Source of the DNA: Muribaculaceae bacterium Isolate-104 (HZI)
GTDB lineage: Bacteria; Bacteroidota; Bacteroidia; Bacteroidales; Muribaculaceae
Length of the DNA: 33,635 nucleotides
Assembly: GCA_003762715.1 (NCBI GenBank)
Contig: RIBJ01000047.1
Coordinates: 1 to 33,635 of the forward strand
Reading direction: 5' to 3'
Part shown: positions 83-33,509 of the stretch, in pieces
How positions within the stretch are numbered: position 1 is the first letter of the stretch
Layout: each line of letters begins with the position of its first letter
Made by a program: the position numbers and the translations under genes
Notes under the pieces: model-generated
What the model was told of the DNA's origin: nothing
Database searches by the model: none
What the model saw: only the letters and a program-made list of their open reading frames with translations

Positions 83-739
83 CTAAATCGGCTCCCGAAT
101 ATTAACATTCATTATTAAACACCCTCTAAGTTTGGTGATGTTAGTATCATCCGCATTAATGACTTTATTGATGTCGCAGTATTTAGACGCGCCCTTTTGA
201 GGAATTGGGAAATGGAAATGGCTTAACGTACCTCTTTCATTGTTGACCGCAACAATGAAGATACGTTTGCGATGTTGAGGAAGCCCAAATTGATGAGGGG
301 AAAGAATGTCGGCTTTTACATCATAATTGAGTGCTGCCAACTTCTCCTGTATAACTTTCCAAGTATTGCCGTTATCATGATTTTTCAGGTTTTGAACATT
401 TTCGAGAAAAATATATTTGGGCTTATGTTCTGCAACAATCGCACAAATATAATCGAACAATGTACCTCTTTGTTTAGAGTCATTGAAGCCTTCTCGTTTG
501 CCCGCCTGACTAAAAGGTTGACATGGGAAACCTGCACAAATTATATCATGTGAAGGTATGTCTTTGGGATCGATTAGTGTAATATCTCCGTAAATTGGAG
601 TCTTAGGAAAGTTTTGCTTGTAGAGGGTCTGGAGGTCTTCTTTCAATTCTGATGCAAAAACGCATTCATGACCCAATGCTTCAAGGGCAAGGTGGAAGCC
701 ACCTAACCCTGCAAATAAGTCTATGAAACGATATGGCAT
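83..739 (-). pseudogene. C5 cytosine-specific DNA methyltransferase, truncated before the target recognition domain
   Basis: The 218 residues from the ATG at 739 (a GTG lies one codon upstream) carry the N-terminal catalytic motifs of a C5 methyltransferase: motif I DLFAGLGG near residue 8, motif IV GFPCQPFS with the catalytic Cys near residue 73, motif VI ENV near 113 and motif VIII QHRKRIF near 155. Family members normally continue for 100-200 residues with a target recognition domain and motifs IX-X. Here the frame stops with TAG at 83, shortly after motif VIII, and nothing resembling the missing half is visible in bases 1-82 on either strand. It is therefore probably inactive, cut at an island junction. 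The alternative is a split enzyme whose second subunit lies outside the window. No restriction partner sits beside it. Confidence 0.85.
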
Positions 740-758
740 CACAGTTTTTATATAGAAA

Positions 759-2233: not shown

Positions 2234-3295
2234 CTATAGAATCTGGTCAATGAGATACCAATAGAAGAAAGCCTCCGGGCGTGTCTTCTTCAACTTGTTG
2301 AGTCGGACAGGCAATACATGGTCTATGTTCATGTCGGAGGTCAGTTTTGAGATGTCAAATTTCTCTATCTGCGTTTGCTCTTTTTCTATGCAAGTGGCGA
2401 CATAGGCTGCCTTTGCCGAATCGACAATCGCATCCTCGATGAAGTATTTGTTCTTATAGATGAAGTTGCCGAGTCGCTTGATGCCGTCCTGCAACAACGG
2501 GAAGTCGCCTTTCCCCTCCAATCCTCGCGTAGCAAGGAGAAGAGCAGTCTGCCGTATGTCCTCATATATTACCGACGGGTCTGCGCCAAGACCACGGTAG
2601 CCAAGTTCCACCAGAGCAATGCGGCTGAACGATTTGGCTGTAAGCTCAAGATCTTCGACTGCATCGAACAGACGGCCTATGTCATAGACCTGCTTCATTA
2701 TTTCGGTGCCACGAGAGTTGCCATTCTTATAATAAGGTATGCCGGTGGTGTTGGGAGCGAATGCCGTCAGTTTGTCGCCGAGAATATCGCCTATGGATGG
2801 AACCATTACAATCGACGGCTCGGAATCAAGCTCGATAAACTGGTTGATGACCTCTATCTCATTCACCTGCTGATAATGTGTGTCCTCATACAAAACGTCA
2901 AGCAGGATATATGACTCCTGGTTTGAACGGTCGGTATAGGCTATCTGATAGAAGAACTTGGAGTGGCTCTTTGGAATATCCTTTCCAGCCTGACGGCGTT
3001 CCACCAGTTCTTTCCTTGTAAAACCGAACTCACTTATGCGGTCAAGATATTCCTCGACATTGGTGCCGGGAGGGCAGATTATGTCAATGTCGATTGAAAG
3101 TCGACGTGTCTTGTCACCAAGTATCAGACCTACACATGTGCCTCCCTTGAAAATATATGGGCAGCCTGAGCGGGCCAAAAGGTCGAGGAGAGCAAAGGCC
3201 CTGATGACTTTCTCGATAATGCCGAGGTCGTTGTAACGGTATTTTTTCGACATTGACTGAAACCAGTCCTTGCCGAAACAGTGTGGTTTAATCAT
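2234..3295 (-). CDS. abiEii: AbiEii-family nucleotidyltransferase toxin
   Basis: The protein has 353 residues with the nucleotidyltransferase signature of AbiEii toxins: a FKGGTCVGL loop near residues 49-57, then RLSIDIDI (65-72) with the paired acidic residues, and a later GDKLTAFAPN motif that binds nucleotide in the family. Known AbiEii proteins are nucleotidyltransferases that stop growth when not countered by AbiEi, giving abortive phage infection or plasmid maintenance. The gene starts 8 nt inside the end of the antitoxin gene, the usual coupled arrangement. Length and motif order are normal and nothing looks broken, so an active type IV-like toxin is likely. The target molecule cannot be read from the sequence. 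Confidence 0.88.
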   Translation of the reverse strand: MIKPHCFGKDWFQSMSKKYRYNDLGIIEKVIRAFALLDLLARSGCPYIFKGGTCVGLILGDKTRRLSIDIDIICPPGTNVEEYLDRISEFGFTRKELVERRQAGKDIPKSHSKFFYQIAYTDRSNQESYILLDVLYEDTHYQQVNEIEVINQFIELDSEPSIVMVPSIGDILGDKLTAFAPNTTGIPYYKNGNSRGTEIMKQVYDIGRLFDAVEDLELTAKSFSRIALVELGYRGLGADPSVIYEDIRQTALLLATRGLEGKGDFPLLQDGIKRLGNFIYKNKYFIEDAIVDSAKAAYVATCIEKEQTQIEKFDISKLTSDMNIDHVLPVRLNKLKKTRPEAFFYWYLIDQIL

Positions 3296-4019
3296 TGTGG
3301 GTTCCCAAGTTTTCTATGGCCTTTTCTATGGCCGGTTTGGCATTGCGCCGCGAGGCATATCGCAGCATTGCGGTTCGGTTGACGGAATACATCGAAAGGG
3401 CGTTGTCGAACATCCGGCTCCATTCGCTGCCGTGAAGATAGTCCAAGTCATCGTCGCAATAAATATCGACAAGGATTTTCTCCAGATGCGGGGTCCTCAC
3501 TCCCTTGAAATCCATAAGAGGAGATTCGGAAATCAAGGGTTTCACAATCACACCCTCCTTTGACAAGTCGATGTTGTCATATACAAAATCCTTCGACGGA
3601 TTAAGATACGCGGTATATCCCTCCTGTTTCAAAGAATGAAAGACTGATTCCATGGCATCGCGGTCCACTTCCACATATATTATATTGTTGGAGGAAATAT
3701 GATGCTGGAAATCAGCAAAGACCTGACCATCGAGTACGCAGACCGAGACAAATGGAAACTTACGGGCGATAATTTTGCCGACTTTCACAGCCTTGGTCCT
3801 CAGGCGTGGCGTGTATTCCGATGTCTGCACCTTGTGTGCCGTATATATGCCACGGCCAAGCTTGAAGATAATATTGTCGTTGATCATTTCCCTGAGATAC
3901 CAGGAGAGCGTGACCTTCGAAATCTCAAACAGTCCGTTGAGATACGACAACAGTTCGGCGAACCGGAAGCTATCCCGATTCTCGGCAAACGTGAGTATGG
4001 CAGTGCGTGTCTCTGTCAT
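3288..4019 (-). CDS. abiEi: AbiEi-like antitoxin and transcriptional regulator
   Basis: The protein has 243 residues. The first 60 look like a winged helix (helix SFRFAELLSYL, recognition segment SKVTLSWYLREM, wing GRGIYT), as in AbiEi/DUF6088 antitoxins. The rest is an alpha/beta domain. Immediate overlap with the nucleotidyltransferase toxin gene supports the assignment. Family antitoxins repress their own promoter by binding inverted repeats, and a perfect 19-bp palindrome lies directly upstream across the promoter. The ATG at 4019 sits about 22 nt from the -7 box, giving a short leader. Confidence 0.82.
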   Translation of the reverse strand: MTETRTAILTFAENRDSFRFAELLSYLNGLFEISKVTLSWYLREMINDNIIFKLGRGIYTAHKVQTSEYTPRLRTKAVKVGKIIARKFPFVSVCVLDGQVFADFQHHISSNNIIYVEVDRDAMESVFHSLKQEGYTAYLNPSKDFVYDNIDLSKEGVIVKPLISESPLMDFKGVRTPHLEKILVDIYCDDDLDYLHGSEWSRMFDNALSMYSVNRTAMLRYASRRNAKPAIEKAIENLGTHND

Positions 4020-4109: not shown

Positions 4110-4406
4110 CTGATTGCATCGCTTTGCGCTTCCGGGTCGGAGAGGTTTTTCGGTGCGAAGATACTGCGGACGGGAGCAACGGCAAGAGCCGCTACGCTTT
4201 CCGGCGATGACTGCGCCCGTGAGCCTCCACATTTTTTCGTGCCTCAAAAATGGGTATCTCGGTCGCAGTCATTGCCTCCACTCTTGCCTTATGTTCCCTC
4301 GTGTCCGCAGTGTGTACTTGCACGAAAAACGGTTCTCCCGACCGAGAAGCTCAAAGGAGCTTCACAAAAAGGGAAAAAGAATTGAACTCATTAATAATAA
4401 GGAACT
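4110..4406 (+). other. Conserved leader region of small-gene cassette, copy 1
   Basis: There is no convincing gene in this 300-nt stretch, but it recurs in front of the second cassette (about 18900-19238). Blocks of identity include a TGAGCCTCCAC segment, CTTGCCTTATG, GCACGAAAAACGG and a hairpin GAAGCTC-AAAG-GAGCTTC (4346-4363) just upstream of the first gene. Several overlapping frames are open here, but their reading frames shift between copies, for example in the A-run after the hairpin (one base longer here). An RNA or DNA element is therefore favoured over a protein. No TAnnTTTG box is evident. Confidence 0.5.
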
Positions 4407-4601
4407 ATGAGAGTAAAGAAAATGACAATCGAGGAGGGACGCCGTGTCGGCATCAACCGCTTCCCGAACTTCCACAAGACAGGAAGTGTCCGAGGCATGA
4501 AGAAGCTCTATTATGGAGCTGACTGCCTTTTGGTGCGCTCAGGCGATTACATATATAATGTGTCTGCCGAGCCAGCCATCTATAATCAAGCAACCATATA
4601 A
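4407..4601 (+). CDS. Small hypothetical protein (64 aa), cassette gene 1
   Basis: The protein has 64 residues, is basic at the N-terminus (MRVKKMTIEEG) and has a C-terminal segment (SGDYIYNVS) suggesting a small beta fold. I recognise no named family. The coding status is supported by the homologous gene at 19239-19433, which keeps the same length, the same start and stop, and mostly conservative changes, although that copy has an in-frame TAG. The next cassette gene starts 11 nt downstream. Confidence 0.65.
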   Translation: MRVKKMTIEEGRRVGINRFPNFHKTGSVRGMKKLYYGADCLLVRSGDYIYNVSAEPAIYNQATI

Positions 4602-4612
4602 CCACTACCGAT

Positions 4613-4921
4613 ATGAATACAGACATCGACTTCATGAAGATAGCCGAGGGCGACAAGGAGTTTGTCCGCGACTTCGAGAACTTTGTCAACGGCAAAGTGA
4701 GCAGCACCGAGAAGACCGGCATGGCGATGACAACCATGCACCGCTATCTCCAGCAGCAGGCGTTTAAGGTAATGTTGGGCTACATGAAAGGACTCGCCCA
4801 CAACTACCGCAAAGGCCGTTACGATGACCGCAACGAGTGGGCCTCGCGTCTCGCAGCCGAGGCATACGCCCATCTAATCGAGGCTGACCTCATTTTTGAC
4901 CCCGACTATGACAATGCTTAA
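4613..4921 (+). CDS. Conserved small helical protein (102 aa), cassette gene 2
   Basis: The 102 residues are predicted mostly alpha-helical and soluble, containing SSTEKTGMAMTTMHRYLQQQ and a basic AHNYRKGRY segment followed by an acidic C-terminus. The paralogue at 19446-19763 is roughly three quarters identical, so it is a real gene under selection. I do not recognise a domain. The position in a string of tiny genes ending with DUF2958 resembles the accessory cassettes of Bacteroidales conjugative and mobilisable elements. The function is unknown. Confidence 0.75.
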   Translation: MNTDIDFMKIAEGDKEFVRDFENFVNGKVSSTEKTGMAMTTMHRYLQQQAFKVMLGYMKGLAHNYRKGRYDDRNEWASRLAAEAYAHLIEADLIFDPDYDNA

Positions 4922-12829: not shown

Positions 12830-14323
12830 ATGGCAACCTTCAGACCATGTGTTCAAAAGCAACGCGCAGACGGTTTCTACCCTGTCTATATCAGGGTGAC
12901 ACATGACAGGCGAACCGCCTTCATGAAGACCACCAAAGTAGTTGAAAAAAAATCCGTCACGAAAAACAACGAGATTCGTGATAACGTAGTCCTAAAATAT
13001 TGCACGGAGATGATTTCCTATTTCAATCAGCGCCTCAATATGCAGGATATTTCCAAGTGGAGTGTCAAAGAAGTTGTATCATTCCTTTCTACAGAGGAAT
13101 CAGATGCCAGTTTCAGTGACTATGCAAAACTTCATATTTCCAGAATGGTGAATGGTGGCCACGAGAGAAATGCAAAAAACTATAAGCTCGCCGTCGCTCA
13201 TCTTGAACGATTTATGGGGACTACACAAATCATGTTCTCGTATCTGACTACCGCAGTGGTTCAGCGGTGGATAAATTCTCTCATGCAAAAGCGAAGAGCA
13301 AAAGAGATGTATCCCGTCTGTATAAGACAGATATATAAGACTGCTCTCGTGGAACTAAACGATGATGAAAGAGGAATCTGTCGGATTAAATTTAACCCGT
13401 GGTTAAAGATACAGATACCCAAGAGTGACAAAACGGACCAGATTGCCATTAGTGCGGAGGACTGCAGGGAGTTTTTCAACCGACCTCTCCCCCAGACAAA
13501 GATGCTGTCGTCTCTTCCTGAATTGGGTAGAGATGTAGCCAAATTGGTACTTTGTCTCGGAGGTATGAACACTGTTGATCTTTTCTCTCTGAAAAAAACT
13601 GATTACCGAAATGGTATCATTTCATATAAACGCGCGAAGACACGTCATAGTAGAACAGATGAAGCATATATCGAAATGCGCGTAGAGCCATTCATCCTCC
13701 CTGTGTTTGAAAAGTATCTTGCAGAGGATGATGACGAGTTCCTGTTCAACTTCCACAATCGTTATTGCGATTCAGATAGTTTCAGTGCGAATGTCAACAA
13801 CGGCGTTAAGAAAATATGTAAGGACATGGGCATGGAAAAAGAGAATTACTACTGTGTCTATACATTTCGTCACACATGGGGTACGATAGCACAGAATGAC
13901 TGTGGAGCAACCCTTGCGGATGTAGCCTTTGGAATGAATCATAGCCATGGATTTAGAATTACACGAGGCTATGTTAAACTTGATTTCACTCCGGCTTGGA
14001 ATCTGAACGCCAAAGTAATCGAGTTCATATTTTTCAGCGATGAAAAAAGCAAACAAGGCATCGCCAGAGATCTTGAAGAGCCGAAAGATAAGTTATTTCG
14101 TATATCCCCAAAAATGATGATATACGGAATAGCATACTTCAAAGGCAAGGTTATCGGTGAAACAACCGATATAGGCTTCAACACTGTAGATGATGTAATA
14201 AAGAAACTTGTCGAGCAGTTTCCCACCGACATTCCGACAGGATGTGCTGTTCAGTTCCGGCTCACCAACTGCGACACTCAGCGCGAAATTGTCTATGAAA
14301 GGACAAAAGGAAAAGGCTTTTAG
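12830..14323 (+). CDS. Tyrosine recombinase/integrase with unusual C-terminal extension
   Basis: The protein has 497 residues. It has an N-terminal arm-binding segment (1-60), a SAM-like core-binding domain (about 92-180) and a catalytic domain. Visible catalytic elements are TFRHTW with Arg347, His371 in MNHSHG and the nucleophile Tyr381 in RGYVKLD. The position of the first catalytic Arg, which I expect within RGM in relatives, reads GGM (Gly244-Gly245-Met246). About 115 residues follow Tyr381, ending in a basic tail, whereas most family members stop soon after the Tyr. IntDOT of CTnDOT also lacks the first Arg, so activity is still plausible. No tRNA or direct-repeat attachment site was identified. 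Confidence 0.85.
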   Translation: MATFRPCVQKQRADGFYPVYIRVTHDRRTAFMKTTKVVEKKSVTKNNEIRDNVVLKYCTEMISYFNQRLNMQDISKWSVKEVVSFLSTEESDASFSDYAKLHISRMVNGGHERNAKNYKLAVAHLERFMGTTQIMFSYLTTAVVQRWINSLMQKRRAKEMYPVCIRQIYKTALVELNDDERGICRIKFNPWLKIQIPKSDKTDQIAISAEDCREFFNRPLPQTKMLSSLPELGRDVAKLVLCLGGMNTVDLFSLKKTDYRNGIISYKRAKTRHSRTDEAYIEMRVEPFILPVFEKYLAEDDDEFLFNFHNRYCDSDSFSANVNNGVKKICKDMGMEKENYYCVYTFRHTWGTIAQNDCGATLADVAFGMNHSHGFRITRGYVKLDFTPAWNLNAKVIEFIFFSDEKSKQGIARDLEEPKDKLFRISPKMMIYGIAYFKGKVIGETTDIGFNTVDDVIKKLVEQFPTDIPTGCAVQFRLTNCDTQREIVYERTKGKGF

Positions 14324-14851: not shown

Positions 14852-15616
14852 TCAATCATCATTGTAAAAATCGTCGTGAGCGGGAGGATAAGGAGTATCT
14901 TCGGGAAAGTGCTTCTCGCAGTACTTAATCAAAGATCGATCCGTAATAGCCTTAAATGCCTGCGTTTTTGCATCATCAAGCGTTGAATATTTATTTTTAC
15001 CACTAAGTTTTTCAAATCTTTTAATAAGTGTACACAAATTCCATAGAGGAAATACTATTTGCAGTTTGAAATAACTATCGTTTTGCCATATCTTTATATG
15101 GCAACCATCAAGTTCTCTAAAATAACCATTTTTCTTATGTTCCCACTTTGGAGAATCCAGATAGCGTCTATATCGCTGGGCCAGCTTCTTTGCCTCTTCC
15201 TCTCTATCAGAAAGGCCACACGCAGAAGTGAGATTTTCAGCACATTGAGAACCAACGGACATGAATCCCCATTCCGGATGAGAAATAAGATGAGCATAAC
15301 GAATAGGGGTATGACAATTCTCACATTCTCCGATAAGTTCCTCTAAATCCTCCATCCCTTCATATTTCCAACCGAAGGTAGGTTTTACATGTCCGTGTTC
15401 CTCTGCATGACAATGTTTACATAAGGTAATGAGTTCAAAATCTTCATACTCCCATGCCTTTCTGCCATAGAAATAATGAAGATGATGAACTTGCAACTGG
15501 TCATCAGGTAATTGTGAGCCACATCTAACACAAGTATTGTTATCTCGTTTAATGATGGCGCGACGTTTATCATACCATTTTTTATCCCGGTATGAAATAG
15601 AAGAGATGGAGAACAT
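14852..15616 (-). CDS. HNH endonuclease with a second zinc-ribbon-like module
   Basis: The protein has 254 residues. The HNH fold is plain: CVRCG (C29, C32), VHHLHY (H44, H45) and LCKHCHAEEH (C66, C69, H70, H74). After this comes a second cysteine module, CENCHTPIRYAHL with C98 and C101 and a later VGSQCAENL with C125, followed by a basic, aromatic C-terminal domain. HNH nucleases nick or cut DNA with a single metal ion. It is the last gene of the tight five-gene operon, 9 nt after the PD-(D/E)XK gene. A methyltransferase partner is absent. Confidence 0.85.
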   Translation of the reverse strand: MFSISSISYRDKKWYDKRRAIIKRDNNTCVRCGSQLPDDQLQVHHLHYFYGRKAWEYEDFELITLCKHCHAEEHGHVKPTFGWKYEGMEDLEELIGECENCHTPIRYAHLISHPEWGFMSVGSQCAENLTSACGLSDREEEAKKLAQRYRRYLDSPKWEHKKNGYFRELDGCHIKIWQNDSYFKLQIVFPLWNLCTLIKRFEKLSGKNKYSTLDDAKTQAFKAITDRSLIKYCEKHFPEDTPYPPAHDDFYNDD

Positions 15617-15625
15617 AGAATTTTA

Positions 15626-16612
15626 TTATTTATGCGCCCAATATCTTATACCAAGATACTCATGCAGTTCTGGGTATTTGGTGATTGTTGGAGTCATCAG
15701 GGTCTTTGGGTCGATTATTACATACTTACTCTGGTCAACTATCATTTCGCGCCATGAGCTTTCCATTCCTTTCTGTGTTACCTTGTAATTCTTATGTAGA
15801 AGTTCATCGTTTTCAGAAGGAATGATGTGGACGTGGAGATAGTTATCGGCTTTCAGCCTCTCCGTCATTTTGTTTCTAACCATATTCTCTGCCCAAAGGG
15901 TCTGCCGCATGAGCTGGTAAAACGGCTCATAATAATACAGACTTCCGGCATACCCGTTAAGGGATTTCAATTGAGAGGATGCTGAAATAAGATCATTGTA
16001 TCGGCTCATACGCTCTTCTCCTTTTCCGTTAGAGCCTTCTGGCTCTCCGTCTCTATCCTCACTGGACTTATCTTGATTGGTATAGTGCTCTGTATACTTC
16101 CACTCTATCGGTATGAGCCATAGCTCACCAGATTTATGCCTTGCATATATCAAGGCATCTATCGATGTGCAGTTGCTTCCTCGATTCGGAGTGCCTTCGT
16201 TCAGGTGATCTTTGTCACTCACAATCTCGAAGGCGATGAAAGAAGGATTCTTGTCTGTCGTAATCGGAAGTACTTCAGTAAATTCATCACGGATATTGTT
16301 AAGTAAGGAGAGAACGGCATCCGCATCATTACGGAGTGAAAACAGATGGTTAAGGCAGGCAATTTGGGAAGAAAGGACATGACCGGAAGGCTTCGATCCT
16401 CCCCACCAACCGATTCCATTCTCTTTGAAGTATCCAATTGCGTCTTTTCTAATGGGAGAATACAGGTTAGATTCTCCATCAGTCAATACAAACAAACGAT
16501 GTGCTCCTTCCTTACCCATAAAGCGCCCTCCACCTGTTGTTCCATTGAAGATGTTACTGTTCACAATGAGTTGCTGTTGACGCTCACATTCCTTGTCTTT
16601 GTAGTGTTTCAT
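15626..16612 (-). CDS. PD-(D/E)XK nuclease, PGN_0703-like
   Basis: The protein has 328 residues. The nuclease core is readable: Asp152 in SIDALIYA, then Glu170 and Lys172 in LIPIEWKYTE, the (D/E)-x-K active site. Upstream, SNLYSPIRKDAIGYF and HVLSSQIACLNHL match my memory of the PGN_0703 putative restriction endonuclease family. A later SLYYYEPFYQLMRQTLWAE segment is the usual helical part. The gene follows the GIY-YIG gene by 5 nt. No helicase or modification subunit is adjacent. The exact substrate is unknown. Confidence 0.8.
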   Translation of the reverse strand: MKHYKDKECERQQQLIVNSNIFNGTTGGGRFMGKEGAHRLFVLTDGESNLYSPIRKDAIGYFKENGIGWWGGSKPSGHVLSSQIACLNHLFSLRNDADAVLSLLNNIRDEFTEVLPITTDKNPSFIAFEIVSDKDHLNEGTPNRGSNCTSIDALIYARHKSGELWLIPIEWKYTEHYTNQDKSSEDRDGEPEGSNGKGEERMSRYNDLISASSQLKSLNGYAGSLYYYEPFYQLMRQTLWAENMVRNKMTERLKADNYLHVHIIPSENDELLHKNYKVTQKGMESSWREMIVDQSKYVIIDPKTLMTPTITKYPELHEYLGIRYWAHK

Positions 16613-16617
16613 TATAT

Positions 16618-17403
16618 TTAGTCTTTTAGGTTTGCAAAAGGTCTCTTTCCGTGTACGGAAACAAAACTCCGTATCATTTGAGTTTCGATGGCTCTTGGGT
16701 CACATCCAGGTGTAATTTTCCAAGCCACTATGAGTCCAACGGAATCAGCCAGTTGCCACAAAAAACGCCCACCCCAATGACCGATTGCGGCCCCTGCGCC
16801 AAAACTGAGCAACTGTCCTACTCGTTTACGGAGGTTTGCAGCCTTACCAATGTAGACAGTCTTACTTTCAGTAACATAATTGTCAGTCAGCACCTCTATC
16901 GATACATTAGGATTCTTACCTTTGAAGAAACCACCTGTTCCTTTTTCAAGGAATTGTGGAGCAACATCAGATTTCCTTATGACTACATACACGCCGGCAT
17001 TTTCAGGGAGAATGGATGTTGCTTCCCTGAGTTTGGCAACCGGAATAAATCCTTCAAAGCCATCTTCTTTATACATATCGATATCTTTATCAGTAGAGAT
17101 ATTGATATGCCGGAGCGGAGTCACATCTTCCTTTTTAATCATTTTAACGGAAGGTAATACCTCTCCGCAGTGACTTTCTGAATCTGAAAGTTTCAAGGTT
17201 CCGTTGTTGAACAGATTTTGCAGGTTTGCTATAGTATAGGCCATCCCGGATGCCACCTCTGACCAATAAAGTCCTATCTTACGAAGCTTTGCCCGTATAC
17301 CTTTCTGCTTTGAACCATCTGCTGATTCAAGCTCTCTCACCAAGGCGATGATGTGTTTTAACTCTTCTCCTGTGAAAGTCGTTTTGGAATTTCTTTCTGC
17401 CAT
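16618..17403 (-). CDS. GIY-YIG nuclease domain protein
   Basis: The protein has 261 residues. The C-terminal 130 form a GIY-YIG domain: AGVYVV (136-141), KTVYIGKAANLRKRV (181-195) with the Arg expected for catalysis, Glu240 in AIETQMI and a closing PFANLKD (255-261) with the Asn often seen in the family. A long insertion (about 145-180) separates the GVY and YIG motifs. The N-terminal 130 residues are helical and charged and contain no domain I recognise; they could contact DNA or the membrane partner. The gene starts 2 nt after the membrane-protein gene. Confidence 0.82.
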   Translation of the reverse strand: MAERNSKTTFTGEELKHIIALVRELESADGSKQKGIRAKLRKIGLYWSEVASGMAYTIANLQNLFNNGTLKLSDSESHCGEVLPSVKMIKKEDVTPLRHINISTDKDIDMYKEDGFEGFIPVAKLREATSILPENAGVYVVIRKSDVAPQFLEKGTGGFFKGKNPNVSIEVLTDNYVTESKTVYIGKAANLRKRVGQLLSFGAGAAIGHWGGRFLWQLADSVGLIVAWKITPGCDPRAIETQMIRSFVSVHGKRPFANLKD

Positions 17404-17405
17404 GA

Positions 17406-17873
17406 CTATTTGATGTTATGAGTTTCTTCATATTGTTTATATGGATCCACATAATCTGGAGAACCCCAAGGTGCTAAAGTTTCGGTCTTGTTAACCGGCT
17501 CCCTCTCTCTGGAAAAGTCATTCTGTCCCCAGTCCGTAATCCATCCAAGAAGCATAAACATTATCCAGCCAATAAGAATGTTTCTATGATTTTTTAAAAT
17601 CTGCTTCTTCTCCTTCGGCCATCCTTTAGGATCTTCGACCATATTCTCGGCATCGTATCGACGGCAATACCAATTCGCAAATATGAAATAAATCGGTGCA
17701 AGCAATGGCAGGAGTATCAGGTAAAGCCACAATCCATATCCCCAAAGACGACCAATCAGGAGGTGCCAAGGAGTAACATTAGTGCTCGTACCTCTGAAGT
17801 TACCATTGGCATCGTGATAGACTCTTGTGCTGGTAAAAAGAGCATCGTGGAATAATGAACCGAGACTTCTCAT
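17406..17873 (-). CDS. Two-helix membrane protein of the nuclease operon
   Basis: The protein has 155 residues. Hydrophobic segments at about 45-67 (LWGYGLWLYLILLPLLAPIY) and about 98-113 (ILIGWIMFMLLGWI) predict two membrane helices, joined by a charged loop of about 30 residues. There is no cleavable signal sequence. The start overlaps the WYL stop by ATGA and the stop is 2 nt before the GIY-YIG gene, so it is embedded in the operon. Small membrane proteins in defence operons often serve as effectors that permeabilise membranes or as anchors; either is an inference. Confidence 0.75.
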   Translation of the reverse strand: MRSLGSLFHDALFTSTRVYHDANGNFRGTSTNVTPWHLLIGRLWGYGLWLYLILLPLLAPIYFIFANWYCRRYDAENMVEDPKGWPKEKKQILKNHRNILIGWIMFMLLGWITDWGQNDFSREREPVNKTETLAPWGSPDYVDPYKQYEETHNIK

Positions 17874-18784
17874 ATCTTATTTCTGATTATTGCTTGTTGG
17901 TATATCTCGTTAATTCTCTCGCGTAATGATGTAGGACTTATAACGGTCAATGAATTACTTCGTGCTAAAAGTGCCATAACGAAATCATTGGTAATCCGGA
18001 TTCTCAGACGAATACGAAACTCTTCTTCATTGTCAACGACTACTTCCTGAGATGAATGAAGTGGTGTTGCTTTAAGAAAATATCCGTCCAATGGAGAATA
18101 TGATAATTCGACATCCTCAATGGGATTGGTCTCATCATCCCATATTCCATAGCTGTTTTGGAATAAACCATTGGGATCAAGGTCTTCGTCCCTTTTAAAT
18201 TTGTCGGGAAGAATCTCCAGATTACTGATTCTATCAACTGCATAAACACGGAGCTGGCGCGTCTCATCAAATGCAACCATATACCATAGACCAAGAGATT
18301 CTTTAAGGAAATGAGGACTTACAGTCTTGGAAATAATCCTGTTATTATTGCGAACCAGCAAGTAATCAAACTTGATGAAATTTGTACATTTAATTGCATG
18401 GATAATAGCAGAAATGCTCTCAGTTCCTTTGGGTCGATGATGTTCAGGGATTATGAATCCGGATACTTCGGCCGAATGATTTATAGATGTCAGTAAATCA
18501 AAATTGAGGAGTAGGTCCTCATATCTTAAGTCGGAATTATCTGTATGTTCAGCTATGAAGTACCCTTCTCCTCGACGGTTCTTAATCTCTACCTCAAACA
18601 TGCTTTCAATCTCGGCGATGTCCCTTTGTAGAGTACGGACACTGAGACCTACCTCATATCCACGAAGCTCCATCTGGAGATTGAGATACGAAATCAGTTC
18701 CTCCGCAGGAATGAATTTTTTCTTTCCTGAGAGCTTCTGTATGATGAGTATATAGCGGATCAACCGCCCCATGTTCTGATTCAT
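17870..18784 (-). CDS. WYL-domain transcriptional regulator
   Basis: The protein has 304 residues. It has an N-terminal winged helix (residues 5-75, with LSVRTLQRDIAEIE as the recognition region), then a WYL domain: a FDYLLVRNNN strand (139-148), LWYMVAF (166-172) and LRVYAVDRI (178-186), followed by a C-terminal WCX-like part. WYL proteins such as CapW, BrxR and PafC sense ligands, often nucleic-acid products, and commonly repress defence operons. It is the first gene of the nuclease operon. A palindrome lies immediately upstream, and the -7 box is so close to the ATG that the mRNA is probably leaderless. Confidence 0.87.
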   Translation of the reverse strand: MNQNMGRLIRYILIIQKLSGKKKFIPAEELISYLNLQMELRGYEVGLSVRTLQRDIAEIESMFEVEIKNRRGEGYFIAEHTDNSDLRYEDLLLNFDLLTSINHSAEVSGFIIPEHHRPKGTESISAIIHAIKCTNFIKFDYLLVRNNNRIISKTVSPHFLKESLGLWYMVAFDETRQLRVYAVDRISNLEILPDKFKRDEDLDPNGLFQNSYGIWDDETNPIEDVELSYSPLDGYFLKATPLHSSQEVVVDNEEEFRIRLRIRITNDFVMALLARSNSLTVISPTSLRERINEIYQQAIIRNKI

Positions 18785-18788
18785 GTTG

Positions 18789-18827
18789 CAAAGTTAATAA
18801 ATGAAAACGTCAAAACATGTCGTTTTC
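18789..18827 (-). promoter_or_regulatory. Promoter and candidate WYL operator of the nuclease operon
   Basis: The -7 box TAACTTTG (18789-18796, minus) ends 4 nt before the WYL start codon, so initiation should fall at or next to the ATG. Directly upstream is an interrupted palindrome, GAAAACG (18803-18809) and CGTTTTC (18821-18827), with an 11-nt spacer. It would overlap the space between the -7 and -33 regions. No well-placed TTTG -33 box is visible, consistent with a weak or activator-dependent promoter. Confidence 0.6.
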
Positions 18828-18899: not shown

Positions 18900-19238
18900 A
18901 TGCATTATTTTCTTTATGCGATTGAGTCTTGGCAGGGAGGCGTTTTTTCTGTACGAAGTTACTGCGTCCAGGAACAACGTCAAGTGCCGCTTTGCTTTCC
19001 GCCTGCGTCTGCGACCGTGAGCCTCCACAACCTTCAGCTCGAAACCGAGCATTCGGTTTCAAATTTTCTCATACCTCCAAAATTTGGGTATCACGGTCTT
19101 GCCGCCGACTCCACACTTGCCTTATGCACCCTCATGGCCGCAGCTGTAGGTTGCACGAAAAACGGCCAGCCCTGCCGAAGAAGCTCAAAAGAGCTTCACA
19201 AAAGGGAAAAAGAATTAAACCTCAGAAATTAAGGAACT
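18900..19238 (+). other. Conserved leader region of small-gene cassette, copy 2
   Basis: This is the counterpart of 4110-4406. Shared blocks (TGAGCCTCCAC, CTTGCCTTATG, GCACGAAAAACGG) and the hairpin GAAGCTC-AAAA-GAGCTTC (19180-19197) are kept, with the stem unchanged and one loop base altered. Frames that are open here are not the frames open in copy 1, which argues against a protein product. The region also contains the sequence upstream of the divergent WYL operon. Confidence 0.5.
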
Positions 19239-19433
19239 ATGAGAGTAAAACGAATGACAATCGAAGAGGGCTAGCGAGTAGGCATCAGCCGCCTTCCGAA
19301 CCTCCACAAGACAGGGAGCGTGCGAGGTATGAGGAAGCTCTATTACGGGCAGAACTGCCTTTTAGTGCGCTGTGGCGACTATATCTATAATGTGTCGCCG
19401 GAGCCCCAAATACACAATCAGGCAACGATCTAA
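19239..19433 (+). pseudogene. Cassette gene 1, copy 2, interrupted by an amber codon
   Basis: This is colinear with the 64-codon gene at 4407-4601 (same length, start and stop), but codon 12 is TAG (19272-19274) instead of CGC. Beyond it the frame continues with well-conserved residues such as KTGSVRGM and CGDYIYNVS. Internal initiation at the Met in RGMRK is conceivable. Because the downstream codons are still conserved, the nonsense change is recent, or the stop is bypassed. Confidence 0.7.
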
Positions 19434-19445
19434 ATCCCGCCCGAC

Positions 19446-19763
19446 ATGAATACAGACATCGACTTTATGAATATCGCCGAGGACGACAAGGCGTTTGTGG
19501 CATCGTTTGAAAACTTTGTCAATGGCAGAGTGAGCAGCACTGAAAAGACCGGCATGGCTATGACCACCATGCACCGCTATCTCCAACAGCAGGCTTTCAA
19601 GGTGTTAATGGGCTACATGAAGGCTCTTGCACACAACTACCGCAAGGGTCGTTATTATGACCGCAACGAGTGGGCTTCGCGTATCACTGACGAGGCTTAC
19701 GGACATCTTGTTGACTGTGACCTCATATATGACGCAGATTATACAAAACTCAAAAATAGATAA
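19446..19763 (+). CDS. Conserved small helical protein (105 aa), cassette gene 2, copy 2
   Basis: The protein has 105 residues, about three quarters identical to the product of 4613-4921, including the unchanged block SSTEKTGMAMTTMHRYLQQQ. Differences concentrate at the C-terminus, where it ends in a basic KLKNR instead of an acidic tail. It is intact, unlike both flanking genes of this copy, which suggests that this gene is the one retained by selection. The function is unknown. Confidence 0.75.
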   Translation: MNTDIDFMNIAEDDKAFVASFENFVNGRVSSTEKTGMAMTTMHRYLQQQAFKVLMGYMKALAHNYRKGRYYDRNEWASRITDEAYGHLVDCDLIYDADYTKLKNR

Positions 19764-32387: not shown

Positions 32388-32481
32388 GAAAAACTGATAT
32401 GGGTATTTCTCTTTTGCTCAGCATATATTTATTGGTTTGGTTCAGTTTAGATGTATATATCTAAGACTTAACCAAACCAAT
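32388..32481 (+). repeat. 80-bp direct repeat, copy 1, extended into a long hairpin
   Basis: Bases 32388-32467 recur at 33430-33509 with two differences (GCT versus GTC after CTCTTTT). In this copy, ATTGGTTTGGTT (32431-32442) also meets a perfect complement at 32470-32481, with an inner TTAGAT/ATCTAA stem (32447-32452, 32459-32464). The second copy lacks the outer right arm. The remaining non-coding sequence from 32162 to 32387 is A/T-rich with no gene seen. Confidence 0.8.
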
Positions 32482-33429: not shown

Positions 33430-33509
33430 GAAAAACTGATATGGGTATTTCTCTTTTGTCCAGCATATATTTATTGGTTTGGTTCAGTTTAGATGTATAT
33501 ATCTAAGAC
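33430..33509 (+). repeat. 80-bp direct repeat, copy 2
   Basis: This copy is 78/80 identical to 32388-32467, in the same orientation, with starts 1042 bp apart. Identity begins and ends sharply on both sides, and the flanks differ. The outer right arm of the copy-1 hairpin is absent here. Confidence 0.85.

Follow-up and report, generated by a model that had tools for sequence, protein, structure and literature searches.

A mobile, WYL-headed operon with an exchangeable DNA-enzyme slot is a candidate defence locus of Muribaculaceae-type Bacteroidales

By sequence comparison, a minus-strand operon of five ORFs in the window (the whole 33,635-nucleotide stretch of DNA analysed) is a genuine, conserved locus that is both mobile and modular; it is a new combination of known parts, and we infer that it is most likely a defence locus. 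An earlier note on this DNA had proposed a five-gene system; the operon is real, yet the conserved unit is smaller, consisting of a putative operator, a WYL regulator gene, a small membrane protein gene and an exchangeable DNA enzyme, with the PD-(D/E)XK and HNH nuclease genes as a variable tail. There is about an even chance that the locus acts as a mobile, WYL-switched DNA-attack or defence cassette of Muribaculaceae-type Bacteroidales, with defence as its presumed role.

The ORF list of the window agrees with the five genes on one strand and the spacings of -4, +2, +5 and +9 nt given in the earlier note, and most of its assignments were upheld (Table 1). The leading product matched PF13280 (35.5 bits; cut-off 21.8) and the WCX family PF25583 (24.8 bits; cut-off 23.9), as expected of a WYL regulator, with HTH_11 slightly under cut-off (24.8 vs 25). 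The description of the second product as a two-helix membrane protein is fair: hydropathy marks residues ~37-71 and, more weakly, ~98-117, and the Pfam search assigned it to no family. Three nuclease folds follow, as had been claimed. PF22558 (167.6 bits against a curated cut-off of 27, with PDDEXK_13 also matched) and PF01844 exceeded their cut-offs in the fourth and fifth products, whereas the GIY-YIG fold of the third is supported by its AlphaFold model (adaptor core pLDDT ~95), the Pfam match to PF01541 being weak (E 0.091, under cut-off) and Foldseek by itself returning no PDB match for the GIY-YIG model at E<=0.001; the GIY/YIG motifs, the catalytic Arg and Glu and the fold are found in this protein. 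The active-site residues E240 (GIY-YIG), K172 (PD-(D/E)XK, in E170-W-K172) and H45 (HNH) are all located where they had been placed. The label 'PGN_0703-like' for the PD-(D/E)XK protein was not reproduced, as NCBIfam gave no match and the name was absent from the literature searched.

Table 1. Features of the operon and its surroundings (positions in the window).
Feature	Position	Strand	Evidence or remark
C5 cytosine DNA methyltransferase, cut by contig start, same element as integrase	83-742		phrog_116 E 3.8e-60
AbiEii-type nucleotidyltransferase (PF08843) and DUF6577 gene	2234-4019		
Imperfect direct repeat flanking the integrase-primase element	4146-4914 and 18944-19746		76%
Tyrosine integrase belonging to the carrier element; orientation convergent to operon	12830..14323	+	PF13102; phrog_1 integrase E 5.6e-14
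HNH nuclease with second Cys/His cluster, 254 aa	14852..15616	-	PF01844 over cut-off; phrog_119 HNH E 3.1e-14
PD-(D/E)XK nuclease, PF22558 REase-ARP, 328 aa	15626..16612	-	PF22558 E 5.8e-49; motif D152...E170-W-K172
Third gene, adaptor and GIY-YIG nuclease	16618..17403	-	
GIY-YIG nuclease domain, residues 105-261 of third gene product	16618..17091	-	E240 at 16684-16686
N-terminal adaptor domain, residues 1-76 of third gene product	17176..17403	-	kept beside another C-terminal enzyme
Small membrane protein, 155 aa, 4-nt overlap with WYL gene	17406..17873	-	hydropathy
WYL-domain transcription regulator, 304 aa	17870..18784	-	PF13280 E 1e-8; PF25583 E 2.9e-5
TAACTTTG, resembles Bacteroidota -7 promoter box	18789..18796	-	TAnnTTTG in 12/13 relatives
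Palindromic putative operator AAAACGWC-N7-GWCGTTTT, end 19 nt ahead of WYL start codon	18804..18826	-	exact match

A palindrome upstream of the regulator's own gene is a feature of the WYL class, and the putative operator was found in 13 of 13 close relatives (distinct loci with WYL identity of at least 54% and upstream sequence present) at the same position, 19 nt before the WYL start, whatever the effector; mismatches numbered none in six loci, one in four and two in three. Below 54% WYL identity the palindrome was matched in only 4 of 46 rows at up to three mismatches; inspection by eye nevertheless shows shorter cores, CGACA...TGTCG, at several of these loci. The box between operator and gene resembles TAnnTTTG, the Bacteroidota -7 promoter box. 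As it ends 4 nt ahead of the WYL start codon (18785-18796 region of the window), the operon message may be almost leaderless.

To locate related loci, an alignment scan with the GIY-YIG protein covered 84,980 species and returned 276 relatives, 80 of which were kept for locus comparison. Among these 80, all five genes were present in order in two loci (L058 and L059), with proteins 85-93% identical to those of the window; the recurrence bears out the co-occurrence envisaged earlier and argues against a chance arrangement. L058 is the locus of genome G504, from another genus than the window's, and L059 is labelled a Clostridia MAG, probably through a binning error; its neighbours resemble those of L058. 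Because the two share 5.9 kb at 95% identity before their sequences diverge, they are read as one lineage in two contexts, with the window as a second lineage. The operon DNA of the window and L058 is 89% identical while the proteins FtsK and TrxB of G504 are 47 and 67% identical to those of the window, and this disparity indicates that the operon was transferred horizontally between genera. Transfer is not required for G502, a genome of the window's own genus, where identities of 83% (WYL), 77% (membrane protein) and 68% (GIY-YIG) for the operon proteins compare with 73% for FtsK and 85% for TrxB.

The third protein was matched in 18 of the 397 genomes of the window's family. Both tail genes lie downstream in two of the 18 (G000 and G504), the contig ends first in G502 and G422, and G408 carries the PD-(D/E)XK gene without the HNH gene, for which no other full-length relative was found among 198 family genomes. 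PF22558 proteins without the other operon genes are common: 40 of 295 genomes of the order carry PF22558, and around 29 other such loci (flanks of ~1.5 kb) membrane, GIY-YIG and HNH genes were found in none and a distant WYL gene in two. GIY-YIG relatives, too, often occur without the remaining operon genes.

The front of the operon behaves as a unit. Ten of the 397 family genomes have a homologue of the membrane protein, together with a WYL gene and in five effector arrangements, the enzyme being GIY-YIG (five), Vsr-fold (three), Mrr-type (one) or of the uracil-DNA-glycosylase (UDG) superfamily (one). An N-terminal adaptor of ~76 residues is common to the GIY-YIG and Vsr versions: that of the window is 74% identical over 76 aa to that of the Vsr-type protein of L180, and the C-termini beyond it give no significant match. 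At the DNA level, similarity to the window begins with the operator and extends over the WYL gene towards or through the membrane gene. It breaks off inside the adaptor for L192 and L193 and at the adaptor start for L194; for L221 and L222 it is already lost within the membrane gene. A truncated Mrr start of 38 codons immediately upstream of the GIY-YIG gene in L010 is likely the scar of such an enzyme exchange. Long runs in L206 and L201 hold Sel1-like and small membrane genes, the adaptor as a separate ORF, a GIY-YIG gene and a glycosylase-like ORF without Pfam match, with a WYL gene in L201.

In L012 (10232-11611), a 459-aa protein without Pfam match combines a Vsr-type nuclease domain with three C-terminal membrane helices predicted from hydropathy. 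Of 21 WYL-led runs, 15 have a small hydropathy-helix gene among the three genes that come next, as do 44 of the 133 runs used as controls (p 0.001, Fisher test); the rule is crude and the 21 runs are non-independent, many of one membrane family. In 29 of the 80 loci the GIY-YIG gene has WYL-cluster genes no more than 4 kb away, 30 in all and 28 of them on its strand; this compares 30 near (566 kb) with 3 farther off (469 kb; p 8e-6), for a cluster that mixes several WYL subfamilies and loci selected by likeness to the window protein. At 28 of 29 other WYL loci of the order (30-41% identity), none of these neighbours was found within ~1.5 kb.

The copies in the window and L192 lie within integrase/primase elements. 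That of the window comprises the integrase beside the operon, as pointed out in the earlier note, a primase and an excisionase-like gene, and it ends near the imperfect repeat, each copy of which carries a paralogous ORF (102/105 aa). In L192 the repeat sits between WYL and primase, an order that would be a circular permutation of the window's. An 80-bp direct repeat of 97.5% identity is also seen at 32388-32467 and 33430-33509 of the window. The neighbourhoods include the AbiEii-type and DUF6577 genes of the window, likely a toxin-antitoxin pair; an OLD-like ATPase adjoining the operon in L058; and, in L192, a metallophosphoesterase matching the PADLOC candidate PDC-S10 (E 2e-69), together with a PD-(D/E)XK gene (75% identity). 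TraG-like and PcfJ/PcfK-like genes adjoin L058, L059 and L061 (by eye). No evident mobile genes were found in the few kb viewed around L194, L203, L221 and L222; L222 adjoins genes resembling recJ, recQ, uvrA and carAB, and L194 dnaN-like genes (both by eye), a housekeeping setting also compatible with repair.

No described system with this gene set was found, in agreement with the earlier note: PADLOC matched no system as a whole, its hits being generic WYL models and a weak ZorE match for the HNH protein; the GIY-YIG, membrane and PD-(D/E)XK proteins matched no PADLOC model; and no such set was found in the literature searched or named in family libraries. Zorya combines membrane proteins with an Mrr-like or HNH nuclease. 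The window HNH protein resembles ZorE (E 2.4e-6) and the Mrr protein of L221 resembles ZorD1 (E 1.1e-11), but the window locus has no helicase and no ZorA/ZorB match, its membrane protein having no PADLOC match at E<=1. CapW is reportedly a WYL regulator of a defence operon. So is BrxR (PMC9122601, in excerpt), and the likeness extends to a WYL plus WCX regulator heading an operon with a palindrome at the promoter; in the window, however, the regulator heads an undescribed gene set. SNIPE, as excerpts of its source present it, is a membrane-bound GIY-YIG nuclease whose location can spare the host (PMC13190303). Like the window locus it ties such a nuclease to a membrane part without a methyltransferase, self and non-self being told apart by location, but it is a single chain with DUF4041, whereas the window has a separate membrane gene, a leading WYL gene and swapped enzyme folds. 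DUF4041 had no Pfam match at E<=1 and, unlike SNIPE, window-type GIY-YIG proteins have no hydropathy helix in the same chain.

CMoRE/PD-T4-3 is a GIY-YIG type IV enzyme needing modified bases; in the extracts of its source one gene encodes it, the nuclease with a GIYxY motif standing at the N-terminus and the sensor at the C-terminus (PMC12923530), whereas the window nuclease is C-terminal behind the adaptor and has the motif GVYVV. The wH-GIY-YIG type IV enzymes also need modified bases, and wH fusions, in the passages concerned, similarly join a small N- or C-terminal domain to interchangeable nuclease folds (PMC11037411), but the window adaptor is not recognised as a winged helix, its enzyme is not known to depend on 6mA, and the locus also has WYL and membrane genes. 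A small domain fused to the UDG of L222 looks wHTH-like by eye. Restriction glycosylases, according to part of their description, use base excision as restriction, with a fold different from that of the UDG-superfamily enzyme of the slot (PMC10273834). As in type IV enzymes, no cognate methyltransferase is present among the five operon genes (Pfam); the earlier note's 'no methyltransferase' stands for the operon but not for its surroundings, as the same element has a cut C5 methyltransferase gene at a distance of 14 kb. The effector types suggest that cleavage may depend on modified bases.

A DNA-attack cassette is supported by (i) the defence-like company (integrase, C5 methyltransferase, AbiEii-type pair, OLD-like ATPase and PDC-S10 metallophosphoesterase); (ii) the fixed operator spacing, effector swaps, kept adaptor and intergenus transfer; (iii) the Vsr protein of L012 with its membrane helices and the membrane-gene enrichment in WYL-led runs; and (iv) the analogues SNIPE, CMoRE/PD-T4-3, wH-GIY-YIG and BrxR. 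Against it stand the silence of PADLOC, the housekeeping neighbours, the WYL relatives below ~42% identity that lack the neighbours, and the Foldseek null. In such a cassette, the WYL protein would bind the palindrome that overlies its promoter and keep operon expression low, and a ligand such as single-stranded DNA or infection nucleotides would lift this repression; the membrane protein would hold the enzymes at the inner membrane, where they might then break invading, perhaps modified, DNA. Since the operon has no methyltransferase and the slot takes enzymes for modified, mismatched and damaged bases, the most likely safeguards of self would be control at transcription, the location of the enzymes and their preference for DNA that is modified or unusual. 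More tentatively, and at clearly lower confidence, the locus might be a membrane-tethered immune locus in which a fixed switch (operator and WYL) and a fixed membrane anchor serve an interchangeable enzyme slot, including a base-excising glycosylase, that is swapped by recombination in the adaptor or membrane gene; a population could thereby change which invading DNA is destroyed and keep control and placement.

The main rival, a DNA-damage-response or repair locus, is somewhat unlikely. Each of the UDG, Vsr and GIY-YIG folds is also used by repair enzymes, the solved WYL chains closest by sequence are a WYL protein (7qfz, E 0.001) and PafBC (6sj9, E 0.0025), and L222 and L194 adjoin repair or replication genes. 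PafBC/DriD-type DNA-damage responses control several unlinked promoters. No regulon was seen here, with a search pattern taken from this promoter type alone and a draft genome of 80 contigs: the window's genome has a single exact operator, and versions with one or two mismatches occur at 6 further places vs 9 for a reversed control pattern. The patchy distribution, intergenus transfer, effector swaps and PD-(D/E)XK/HNH tail would also be unusual for repair. It is improbable that the locus serves the mobile element, instead of antiphage immunity, as a weapon against rival elements or against hosts, through addiction or through exclusion of plasmids or ICEs; the integrase/primase elements and the TraG-like and PcfJ/PcfK-like neighbours would suit it, yet four loci lack evident mobile genes in the few kb viewed and no antitoxin-like partner was recognised. 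A loose cargo cluster under one promoter without joint function, suggested by the often solitary PF22558 and GIY-YIG relatives and the isolated HNH gene, is very improbable given that operator, WYL and membrane gene recur ahead of an enzyme, with a 4-nt overlap and fixed operator spacing.

If the locus is defensive, as we favour, an enzyme swap inside a fixed, regulated membrane module would alter the target range and leave control untouched, WYL ligand sensing would be coupled with the breakdown of DNA at the membrane, and a UDG-superfamily enzyme would occupy an immune slot. Polymorphic toxins exchange their toxin tips in a comparable way. Operator, WYL and membrane gene together offer a search key for more effectors in gut Bacteroidales. 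Two other arrangements were seen among the compared loci. Adaptor-GIY-YIG genes lie amid type I restriction-modification-like genes (by eye) in L066, L067, L070, L078 and L109, which are loci of the Sphingobacterium and Chryseobacterium type. In Prevotella-type loci (L072, L074, L076, L083 and L108), a WYL gene, a gene whose product of ~340-520 aa falls into one cluster and a GIY-YIG gene stand in a row, and the sole cluster member scanned, that of L074, matched N6_Mtase (E 1.9e-6).
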